From NCBI GenBank assembly GCA_946544235.1, contig CAMNMC010000116.1:1-64000 (forward strand): a stretch of DNA of 64,000 bases, in the 5' to 3' direction. The stretch's first letter is position 1. Each line of letters begins with the position of its first letter. The notes under the pieces were generated by a model. It was not told where the DNA came from, searched no databases, and was given only the letters and a program-made list of their open reading frames with translations. A program made the position numbers and the translations under genes. This stretch comes from an uncultured Lachnospiraceae bacterium. Its GTDB lineage: Bacteria > Bacillota > Clostridia > Lachnospirales > Lachnospiraceae. This document shows positions 23,836 through 61,084 of the stretch, in pieces.

Positions 23836-25449
23836 CTACTGAACCTTACCATCCTTAACATTATAACTCTTTCCGTTATAAGTAACCTTACCGGAGAAAC
23901 CTAACTGAACTTTACCACCCTTGCAGCACCATGATCCGTTTTCATTCTTAGCAATTCCGGTGAAGTTGAAATCTACCTTACCATTCTTTATAGCCCACCA
24001 GCCATTCTCATTCTTGGCAACGGTATCTATAAACTGAACCTGACCATTTTTACAATACCAGTATCCGTTTTCGTTCTTGGCAATTCCGGTGAAGCTGAAG
24101 TCTACCTTGCCATTCTTTATAGCCCACCAGCCGTTTTCATTCTTGGCAACGGTATCTATAAACTGAACCTGACCATTCTTACAATACCAGTATCCATTTG
24201 CATTCTTGGCAATACCGGTGAAGTTAAAATTAACCTTACCATTCTGAATAGCCCACCAGCCGCTTGAATTCTTGGCAACGGTGTTAACCGACTTATCAAC
24301 TCTTCCTTTTTTAACATACCACCATGCGGTTTCTTTGTTTATAGTGCCCTTAACGATATCTGTCGTGTTACTGAATGCACCATTAACAATATATGCCCAG
24401 GTGCCGTCACCCTGCTTCTGGAACTGATCCTTTGATGTAATTATAACGAGACTCTGATCGGTGTAAAGCACGTCGACATCAAAATCATACGTCCTGTCGA
24501 CATCATTAACCGAATTCCAGATATACTTATCACCATTCCATGATTTCAACACTTTTCTATTCTTGAACAGACTTTTCATCTTACTGCAGTTGGTTAAGTC
24601 AACCGACTTCAGTTTAGGTGAATCAAAAAGATGTAAAATCCTGAGCTTACTGCTTGTAAGCTTTATTGATGAAAGATTATCACAATCGTTCATATAAACC
24701 CGCTCCAGCTTTTTATTCTTGGAAAGATCCAGACTCTTTATAGGTGTATTTCCCGCATCAAACACTTCAAGCTCTGAAAGGGTACTTACATCAAGGCTTG
24801 ATATCTTGCTTCCGTGAACATTCACTTCCCGAAGTGATGTATGCTTTTTAAGATCAAGCTTTTTTATATTACAGTCAATAAGCGAAATAGTTTTCAATTT
24901 GGTATTCTTACTGATATCGATAGTACTAAGGTCAGACTGGGCAATAGATAACGATGTCAGTTCCTTATTGGTAGACAGATCGATACTTGTCAGCTTTGAG
25001 CCATAAATCGTAAGAGCATCAAGCCTGGTGCACCCCTTCACATTGATACTCTTCAGATTCGGTGCCCTGTCAAAACCTATCACGTAAATATTCTTATTCT
25101 TGCTGAAATCTGCAGTGGTAAGCTCGTCCCCGAAATAATAAAACTGTTCCAGATTTGTGAGATATTCTATACCCTTTATGCTTTTTGCATTATCAAATGT
25201 TTCATCATATATGCAGAGATCGATGCATTTTGCATCTGCGATCTCCTTAGAACTGAGCGTTCCGTTTCCATCCATATCAAAATTAGCTTTGACATATGTA
25301 CGGAATACCTTATCCGGGAAGTTTGTGCTGTTGATCTTTACTCCTCCGGCAGCCTCCGAACTGCTTCCTCCTCCCAGTACCGAAGCAAATGCAAATGCCG
25401 CTGTCATGGCCGCACATCCGATTATTTTTCTGATACCATGTTTCTTCAT
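23836..25449 (-). CDS. Secreted leucine-rich-repeat protein with EF-hand/dockerin-like motif and C-terminal GWW/GYWYC cell-wall-binding-like repeats
   Basis: Signal peptide, DMDGNGTLSSKEI, LRR-type repeats, TVAKNENGWWAIKNGKVDF / TGIAKNENGYWYCKNGQVQF repeats. Confidence 0.85.
   Translation of the reverse strand: MKKHGIRKIIGCAAMTAAFAFASVLGGGSSSEAAGGVKINSTNFPDKVFRTYVKANFDMDGNGTLSSKEIADAKCIDLCIYDETFDNAKSIKGIEYLTNLEQFYYFGDELTTADFSKNKNIYVIGFDRAPNLKSINVKGCTRLDALTIYGSKLTSIDLSTNKELTSLSIAQSDLSTIDISKNTKLKTISLIDCNIKKLDLKKHTSLREVNVHGSKISSLDVSTLSELEVFDAGNTPIKSLDLSKNKKLERVYMNDCDNLSSIKLTSSKLRILHLFDSPKLKSVDLTNCSKMKSLFKNRKVLKSWNGDKYIWNSVNDVDRTYDFDVDVLYTDQSLVIITSKDQFQKQGDGTWAYIVNGAFSNTTDIVKGTINKETAWWYVKKGRVDKSVNTVAKNSSGWWAIQNGKVNFNFTGIAKNANGYWYCKNGQVQFIDTVAKNENGWWAIKNGKVDFSFTGIAKNENGYWYCKNGQVQFIDTVAKNENGWWAIKNGKVDFNFTGIAKNENGSWCCKGGKVQLGFSGKVTYNGKSYNVKDGKVQ
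23938..24280. repeat. Roughly 129-bp tandem repeats in the 3' part of the LRR gene
   Basis: Near-identical DNA copies encoding a 43-aa GWWAI + GYWYC unit. Confidence 0.8.
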
Positions 25450-59279: not shown

Positions 59280-59310
59280 CCCGTCGGACATCTCCGACGG
59301 GACTTTTTTA
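59280..59310 (+). terminator. guaB terminator
   Basis: CCCGTCGGA-CATC-TCCGACGGG followed by ACTTTTTTATTTT. Confidence 0.92.
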
Positions 59311-59311
59311 T

Positions 59312-59359
59312 TTTGTTTATATTTGTTTATTTTGTTTATATTTGTTTATTTTTGTTTAC
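59312..59359. repeat. Array A: five TTTGTTTA(T/C) units with 9-10 bp spacing
   Basis: G of each unit at 59315, 59325, 59334, 59344, 59354. Confidence 0.95.
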
Positions 59360-59375
59360 TGTAAAATTATGGTTC

Positions 59376-60479
59376 CTAATTATCTTTATCTTGCAGATAG
59401 TCCTTAAGATACGCTATACAGAAGCAAACCTCTCCTCTTTTTATCTGTTTTATAACCCCAGAATCGATCAACCTTTTTTTGTATCGCTGGGCGTATGCCG
59501 CGCTCACTTCCATCCTCTCGGCTATATCCGATACCCTGCTGGTCTCTATATCCTGCGTCATAGATTTTAGAAATTCAATATCCCTGTCGGACAATGTATT
59601 AAGCGTTGTCTCGCAGATATCCGTAATAAAATCTGTTTTAGCATCATTTAAGGCTTTTTCATACATATTCTTATCAATTTGACCCGAATCATCTGAATAT
59701 ATAGTTATATAATGCCCTGCCAGCTGCATAAGATATGGTGAGCCCTCAGTAAAACCTGCCAGCTCATCATATTTTGATACATCAAGCGATATTCCAAGTT
59801 CTTTAAATACTTTTCTGTAATAGTCAGAGATCACTCTTTCATTCAGTGGTCCAAGATCTATCTTTCTTGCCCTGTTAAGGAATGTGAGCACATGTTCATT
59901 AAGTGTCGTCGAAACCGCTCCCGGAAGGCCTGCCATAACTATTGCAACATTCAGCCCTTCACCAACCATTTCCTGGTATACCGCAATGAGGCTCTTAAGT
60001 GCCTCACTGTTTGCCTGTACCTCATCTACAAGAATCAATACACCTTTTCCCTTCTCAGTAAGTCTTCGGCACACTTCAATCAATCTGTATTCATAACTCT
60101 TTTCCATACCACCGGACTTATCAGTCTGGAACCCCAGTCCAAATCCGATAACAGATACATTTCCCCCTGATAGCTCCCTCTTGTCCTGGCGTAAATATTT
60201 TGAGCCGTCGTCATACAGCTTTTCGATTATCCTTCGCTGAAGATCAGTCGATACTATAGTTGGCGAAGCAACTACAAAACCATTCCTTCTGGCTATTTCA
60301 GCCATTTCCAGAAGCATAACAGTTTTTCCATAGCCTCTTTGTCCCAGTATCAGTGCAGCTCTGTCCCTGCTTCCGGCAGGCGAGTTCAAAGCCGCCTTAA
60401 AATATGATAATTCCTCATCCCTGCCAACCATTATTCGTGGGCGATTCCCAAATGAGGGTGCAAAAATACTATCCTTCAT
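59376..60479 (-). CDS. AAA ATPase with C-terminal winged-helix region (Orc1/archaeal-ATPase-like)
   Basis: LILGQRGYGKTVMLLEMA Walker A, GVLILVDEVQA Walker B, C-terminal HTH RVSDIAERMEVSAAYAQRYKKRLIDSGVI; ATG at 60479 preceded by GAGGT. Confidence 0.9.
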   Translation of the reverse strand: MKDSIFAPSFGNRPRIMVGRDEELSYFKAALNSPAGSRDRAALILGQRGYGKTVMLLEMAEIARRNGFVVASPTIVSTDLQRRIIEKLYDDGSKYLRQDKRELSGGNVSVIGFGLGFQTDKSGGMEKSYEYRLIEVCRRLTEKGKGVLILVDEVQANSEALKSLIAVYQEMVGEGLNVAIVMAGLPGAVSTTLNEHVLTFLNRARKIDLGPLNERVISDYYRKVFKELGISLDVSKYDELAGFTEGSPYLMQLAGHYITIYSDDSGQIDKNMYEKALNDAKTDFITDICETTLNTLSDRDIEFLKSMTQDIETSRVSDIAERMEVSAAYAQRYKKRLIDSGVIKQIKRGEVCFCIAYLKDYLQDKDN

Positions 60480-60492
60480 GCTCAATCACCTC

Positions 60493-60566
60493 TTGTTTAT
60501 TTTGTTTATATTTGTTTATTTTGTTTACTTTTGTTTTTTTTGTTTATATTTGTTTCTTTTGTTTAT
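60493..60566. repeat. Array B: eight TTTGTTTA-like units with alternating 9/10-bp spacing
   Basis: G positions 60495, 60504, 60514, 60523, 60533, 60542, 60552, 60561; enclosed by ACCTCTTGTTTA (60488-60499) / TAAACAAGAGGT (60569-60580). Confidence 0.95.
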
Positions 60567-60593
60567 TTTAAACAAGAGGTCTGTTGTTGTCAA
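60565..60593 (-). promoter_or_regulatory. Predicted promoter of the AAA ATPase gene
   Basis: Minus strand TTGACA (60588-60593), 17 bp, TAAAAT (60565-60570). Confidence 0.7.
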
Positions 60594-60701: not shown

Positions 60702-61019
60702 TTATAAGCATTTTTTTATCATTTCATTGTCATTCAACGCGTTTTCAAGGATTCTGCTCAAAACAGAAGTATATCCCTTTCCAAGTGACTTGGCTTTTGC
60801 GAGAGCTGCCGGTGATAATCTGATCGTAACGGTCTTTTTCCGTCTTTCTTCTCTCCTCGCATCTGAAACCCTCTTGAACTCCAACAGTTCTTCATCAGTA
60901 ATTTCCGGCGAATCTTCATCAAATACGACAGGCATTGCTTCAGACATCTCAAGCATATTTTTCTGTTCTTCCGTCAAAGGTGAAGTTATATCTATATTTT
61001 TAATTACTTTTTTAAACAT
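60702..61019 (-). CDS. BrnA-type antitoxin-like protein
   Basis: C-terminal KKTVTIRLSPAALAKAKSLGKGYTSVLSRILENAL (ribbon-helix-helix style); start MFKKVIKN at 61019. Confidence 0.75.
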   Translation of the reverse strand: MFKKVIKNIDITSPLTEEQKNMLEMSEAMPVVFDEDSPEITDEELLEFKRVSDARREERRKKTVTIRLSPAALAKAKSLGKGYTSVLSRILENALNDNEMIKKCL

Positions 61020-61084
61020 ATTGCTACTGTAGAATGCCCAAGCATTTCTCATTAATTCAGTATATATACTACGATCCTATGGCA

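Follow-up and report, generated by a model that had tools for sequence, protein, structure and literature searches.

The 64,000-nucleotide stretch of DNA analysed here (hereafter the window) comes from an uncultured Lachnospiraceae bacterium (GenBank assembly GCA_946544235.1, contig CAMNMC010000116.1, positions 1 to 64,000 of the forward strand) and carries a gene for an AAA ATPase whose promoter and leader are filled by eight TTTGTTTA-like units. Our sequence comparisons suggest that gene and array probably form an autoregulatory module complete in itself, with the ATPase predicted to multimerise on its own cognate array, and that this ATPase is one of many solitary AAA ATPases of archaeal type (STAND/Orc-like) that make up a widespread family. 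Comparison across relatives established the gene-array association, the phased spacing, the promoter/leader position, the co-variation of unit and recognition helix, the lack of arrays elsewhere in the genome and the lack of a recurrent partner.

Private phased arrays upstream of the ATPase genes

Arrays were scored as the top count of any exact 7-mer within 180 bp upstream of a gene, and an array was called at four copies or more. By this measure, 94 of 126 non-redundant relatives in a first set and 127 of 163 in an enlarged set carry an array, compared with none of the 217 control genes of the same loci (maximum 3). Furthermore, 90 of the 126 relatives exceeded dinucleotide shuffles at p<0.01. 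The TTTGTTTA array was found in the window alone; relatives spell their arrays differently, with units that include CAGTAAA, GTTATAA, GTATATA, TTATGAA, TTGTGATAAG, ATTATAT, GAATAAA and TTGCTATA, and the unit sequence differs even between relatives that are 55% identical. An initial annotation of the window had proposed cooperative sites for the encoded ATPase/winged-helix protein and had named homologues lacking the arrays as a counterexample. Relatives do lack TTTGTTTA, yet they bear arrays of their own, and the shared syntax of these arrays, together with the match between unit and recognition helix described below, strongly supports the proposal.

Arrays hold about 5-11 units across the family. 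Among Collinsella orthologues that are 97-98% identical to one another, the unit number varies from 5 to 8, suggesting that expression is tuned through repeat number. In the same genomes, genes of a sister ATPase family (about 400-430 amino acids (aa)) have at most 3 copies, which we count in support of the module. By eye, this sister family (N-terminus NPYRPGAGLMP; L258, L261, L262, L266) shows degenerate TTATAG-like units, two or three in number, ahead of the promoter, perhaps an ancestral or reduced array.

Across 61 genomes of the genus, multi-unit CAGTAAA arrays were found next to ATPase genes, at the end of a contig (L148) and next to an ATPase pseudogene (L164), with L158 as the one exception. 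Single CAGTAAA doublets elsewhere are near chance; as candidate further targets, only the longer repeats at L158 and the array before mnmG at L062 stand out. At L164:560-780, the array precedes a short ATPase remnant (N-terminus, then an early stop), indicating that gene decay leaves the array behind. At L158:1500-1560, five CAGTAA-like units spaced about 10-11 bp apart precede a permease-like gene on a stretch with no ATPase, and represent a possible second target or a chance repeat.

Pairwise unit spacings in relatives cluster at 10, 19-20, 29-30, 39-40, 48-49, 58-59 and 68 bp, with almost nothing between. The family spacing is about 9.7 bp per unit, and its register is kept across missing units, as predicted for phasing along the DNA helix; the register also holds inside the -35/-10 spacer. 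Relative to DNA of 10.5 bp per turn, units in the family drift by about -27 degrees each and wind slowly round the helix rather than occupying one face, a geometry that would suit a superhelical oligomer.

A TTGACA-(16-18)-TATAAT-like promoter was found in 88 of 127 arrayed relatives, individual calls being uncertain since about one third of shuffled sequences also contain one. In 75 of these 88, no fewer than 80% of the units are located at the -35 box or downstream of it, a position in which bound protein would obstruct RNA polymerase. Of 606 units counted, 395 are downstream of the -10 box. We found no Rfam match in the leader, and its folding was no better than that of shuffles.

Relatives are present in 27 of the 61 genus genomes and in 78 of 396 genomes of the window's own family (Lachnospiraceae). 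A phylum-wide draw yielded members in just 4 of 398 genomes because the ATPase family is patchy and concentrated in Lachnospiraceae. Relatives also occur in Lactobacillaceae, Coriobacteriia, Acidimicrobiia, Corynebacterium, Streptococcus and Treponema, as well as on 83 plasmid records. Most of those found are solitary genes on chromosomal contigs, flanked by unrelated genes, and no recurrent neighbour gene family was found around them. None was confirmed in viral contigs, and phages gave one distant 5.9-kb metagenomic record. The window's genome carries three paralogues (27-31% identity), and the nearest relatives of the window ATPase (L116-L119) are 55, 54, 44 and 38% identical to it.

Co-variation of unit and recognition helix

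We observed that unit similarity follows the identity of the 13-residue recognition helix, with a partial rank correlation of 0.271 after the remaining winged-helix residues and the ATPase domain are controlled for. None of 300 permutations reached this value (maximum 0.09), and contributions to unit similarity were 0.07 from the remainder of the winged helix and -0.03 from the ATPase domain. At the level of classes, the N-x-[FYW]-N-P-Y helix goes with [CT]AGTAA (CAGTAAA-type) units in 23 of 25 loci, and in 6 of 7 once the loci had been thinned so that ATPase identity stayed under 60% (p=2e-5). Similarly, the [MLF]SVYR helix is found with TTATA[AT] in 14 of 16 cases, and EW[ST]xxR with TTATAT in 9 of 10. 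These classes were picked after inspection, which the correlation was not, and several helix-unit class tests were not significant. Paralogues within one genome carry different units, each following its own recognition helix. The within-genome orthogonality of paralogue units did not differ from that of random draws (0.554 vs 0.548, P=0.62), and therefore demonstrates no selection against cross-talk.

The window locus and its downstream array

The start codon of the window ATPase is ATG 60479, which is preceded by an AGAGG ribosome-binding site; the protein comprises an NPF/FG-like N-terminus, a Walker A motif (GQRGYGKT), a Walker B DE (D152, E153), a helical lid and, C-terminally, a winged helix. 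Both Walker motifs are intact, as G49, G51, K52, T53, D152 and E153 are invariant in 75 sequences. Pfam cut-offs were exceeded for AAA_16 (47.4 vs 32.6 bits) and ATPase_2 (36.5 vs 33.2 bits), and ATPase_2 matched 70 of 75 relatives at E<=0.001. An AlphaFold model of the 367-aa protein (75 relatives; mean predicted local distance difference test score (pLDDT) 91.3) displays the AAA domain, the helical lid and the C-terminal winged helix with its wing, and no further domain; DSSP places the recognition helix at residues 327-339 of the model. The nearest solved folds are 2QEN (archaeal Walker ATPase; template modelling score (TM) 0.69-0.72), then Orc1/Cdc6, and we count this AAA and winged-helix fold in favour of the module. 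The Orc1/Cdc6 profile TIGR02928 remained below its cut-off (17.3 vs 181.3 bits). No curated NCBIfam or PADLOC family fitted the ATPase, and PADLOC and defence libraries gave just weak, partial P-loop or helix-turn-helix matches to anti-phage defence families.

Table 1. Features of the ATPase locus in the window (TRF, Tandem Repeats Finder).
Feature	Position	Strand	Basis
ATPase gene, 367 aa	59376..60479	-	Pfam, AlphaFold, PDB fold matches
Recognition-helix codons (residues 325-337, VSAAYAQRYKKRL)	59469..59507	-	unit-helix co-variation
Ribosome-binding site AGAGGTG	60487..60493	-	sequence
-10 box TAAAAT, 17 bp from -35; upstream array starts here	60565..60570	-	promoter scan
-35 box TTGACA (6/6)	60588..60593	-	sequence, promoter scan
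Upstream phased array, eight TAAACAAA units (sense strand)	60493..60569	-	sequence and TRF (60493-60569)
Downstream array, five units, orientation as upstream array	59307..59358	-	sequence and TRF (59307-59358)
11-bp perfect inverted repeat, arm CCTCTTGTTTA	60489..60499	.	sequence
11-bp perfect inverted repeat, other arm TAAACAAGAGG	60569..60579	.	sequence

We recovered the eight upstream and five downstream units described in the initial annotation, as well as the 30-bp direct repeat common to both arrays (59323-59352 and 60493-60522, 1.17 kb apart). The upstream array had been placed just before the start codon; it spans the -10 box to the ribosome-binding site and therefore sits in the promoter and leader, not upstream of the promoter. 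Five of its units are exact (60501, 60511, 60520, 60539 and 60558) and three are variants, with spacings of 9, 10, 9, 10, 9, 10 and 9 bp (a double unit of 19 bp), and the last unit extends into the ribosome-binding site. The annotated 9-10 bp spacing holds, but not the claim that all copies share one side of the DNA: at a mean of 9.4 bp, the window units drift by about -37 degrees each, and eight of them wind about two thirds of a turn. The upstream array is flanked by the arms of an inverted repeat, CCTCTTGTTTA spanning the ribosome-binding site and TAAACAAGAGG stopping at the -10 box.

The five downstream units are exact TTTGTTTA copies (59312, 59322, 59331, 59341 and 59351). This array is separated by 17 bp from the ATPase stop codon (59376-59378) and runs into the T-tail of the guaB terminator. 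Overall, the window contains 12 exact copies of TTTGTTTA, compared with 2.6 +/- 1.35 in shuffles (maximum 7). Outside the locus, only four unit pairs at array spacing occur genome-wide, at or below the count of a reversed-pattern control, and a scan of the whole assembly (2.87 Mb, 82% complete) against this control found no second array. Arrays scattered over unrelated loci, which the initial annotation had regarded as a possible objection, were not found; outside pairs are at chance level. The window also has long repeats of 63-66 and 129 bp at 23934-24282, which are unrelated to the arrays.

Downstream sequence was readable for 122 non-redundant relatives, and among them only the window showed a clear array of its own unit behind the gene. 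L062 has one pair, and apart from these two loci the downstream regions of relatives resemble controls. The simplest account of the window's extra array is that it was copied, or that it is left over from a duplication of gene and array in tandem. It may provide an additional site for looping, and recombination between the two 30-bp direct repeats could delete the gene. At L062:4035-4155, between the ATPase gene and mnmG, a CAGTAAA-type array (not that ATPase's unit) is followed by the own-unit pair (AAAGGTAAAG) directly before the mnmG start codon, and mnmG may be under array control there.

On the guaB side in G001 and G002, the ATPase gene and the TTTGTTTA array are both absent, which we count in support of the module. 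The interval from guaB to a PEMT-family methyltransferase gene is variable, with HicA/B-like genes in G005 and G015, and the ATPase with an orphan BrnA-type antitoxin gene (60702-61052, no evident BrnT toxin beside it) in the window. This other cargo points to a general variable site. In G001, where no ATPase was detected, five 12-bp T-rich repeats (TCTCTAATTTTT) of a different period lie right after the guaB terminator (L205:295-390).

Proposed mechanism, rival explanations and known systems

In the autoregulatory module that we consider probable, the C-terminal winged helix would read a core of ~7 bp at intervals of ~9.7 bp. Protomers arranged head to tail, most likely connected through their ATPase domains in the ATP state, would cover the array between the -35/-10 region and the ribosome-binding site, and this coverage would shut off or tune transcription of the ATPase gene itself. 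Several points weigh against this reading. Physical binding, ATP-dependent multimerisation and repression rather than activation are steps that we infer from the comparisons. The statistics use related sequences, and permutations and partial correlations lessen the effect of shared ancestry without removing it. Furthermore, 36 of 163 relatives are under the four-copy threshold, many of them looking degenerate, not bare, when judged by eye; promoter autoregulation does not explain the window's downstream array; and the 5' leader position leaves room for action at the RNA level.

A different and, in our view, unlikely role for the array would be that of a centromere- or origin-like cis site, with the ATPase acting as a single-gene partition or replication-initiator protein and the chromosomal copies being domesticated plasmid functions. 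Plasmid R388 is stabilised by its StbA protein, which binds 9-bp direct repeats arranged in two sets of five around the promoter of its own gene (PMC3098194), the ATPase fold resembles Orc1/Cdc6, and four of the 83 plasmid records, when inspected, showed short repeats before the gene. Conversely, most relatives are solitary on chromosomal contigs between unrelated genes, two examined plasmids have typed replicons of their own, the Orc1/Cdc6 family score is far under its cut-off (17 vs 181 bits), and the arrays are centred on the ATPase gene's own promoter. It is improbable that the repeats act instead in the mRNA leader, with the ATPase or another factor binding the transcribed repeats to control translation: the many units downstream of the -10 box, their constant orientation relative to the gene and the A-rich leader would fit, but the register across missing units and within the -35/-10 spacer, the unremarkable folding and lack of an Rfam match, and the tracking of a DNA-type recognition helix by the unit argue against it.

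Binding of the arrays by host proteins, or arrays that are curved or low-complexity leader DNA without cognate recognition, would accord with A/T-rich units and with the bending of DNA by phased A-tracts; this is made very improbable by paralogue units that differ within one genome, each following its own recognition helix, and by same-genome control genes that lack arrays. The initial annotation had also raised the idea that the arrays mark the ends of a small unit, mobile or derived from a plasmid, that carries the ATPase. The 30-bp direct repeat does flank the gene on both sides, the matching site of G001 and G002 lacks both gene and TTTGTTTA array, and L062 too has an own-unit copy on the far side. 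This idea could not be upheld and we give it scarcely any credence, as nearly all relatives lack downstream arrays, viral contigs yielded no confirmed relative, there is no recombinase and the repeats are direct, unit sequences diverge even between 55%-identical relatives and the interval carries HicAB-like genes in relatives. A transposon was also considered and rejected, with no recurrent neighbours and no conserved downstream end in relatives.

If true, the autoregulatory module would offer a testable mechanism for an otherwise unnamed group of 'ATP-binding proteins', a data set on the DNA specificity of winged helices, candidate repressor/operator pairs that are self-contained, and a simple model for studying AAA ATPase assembly along DNA. 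A bolder version, which we advance only tentatively, is a so far unrecognised class of self-addressed modules, in which solitary Orc/STAND-like ATPases would polymerise along a DNA ruler within their own gene that is private, helically phased and quick to diverge, giving more than 100 winged-helix/operator pairs with a readable recognition-helix code and possibly serving as a sensor or defence switch.

Among known proteins, the archaeal Walker-type ATPases of PF01637 ATPase_2 (2QEN, paby2304, Pyrococcus abyssi) share with the window ATPase a Pfam match above cut-off, the best fold match and the AAA plus C-terminal winged-helix architecture. To our knowledge, no private phased promoter array is known for them. 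Orc1/Cdc6 with their origin recognition boxes share the fold and presumably the DNA-bound multimers, whereas the window ATPase scores far under that family, is a sporadic accessory gene and differs in repeat syntax and position. The steps of the proposed mechanism each have a precedent, provided by MalT, PimR and StbA. MalT forms ATP-dependent multimers that bind repeated boxes cooperatively (PMC4381067), and the SARP-LAL regulator PimR uses repeating direct units of 10-11 bp (PMC5930380); the likeness of MalT/STAND factors and PimR to the module would lie in ATP-switched multimers on rows of short direct repeats. However, MalT and PimR activate target promoters, MalT with a separate sensor domain, whereas the window ATPase has no added sensor domain, has its array in its own promoter and has no regulon that we could find (no other arrays in the genome); its family carries about 5-11 units per array, diversified across members. 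With StbA and the R388 stbDRs, the shared trait is direct repeats around the promoter of the protein predicted to bind them; the stbDRs function in plasmid stability and are found again in promoters of other plasmid genes, whereas the window's relatives are single ATPase genes, mostly chromosomal. A full-text search of open-licence papers found no description of a family-wide array. Autoregulation via direct repeats is already known as a kind; an ATPase family whose members mostly carry private, phased, helix-matched arrays appears to be new, and has the look of a one-gene switch that is widespread, seemingly undescribed and able to recognise nothing but itself.
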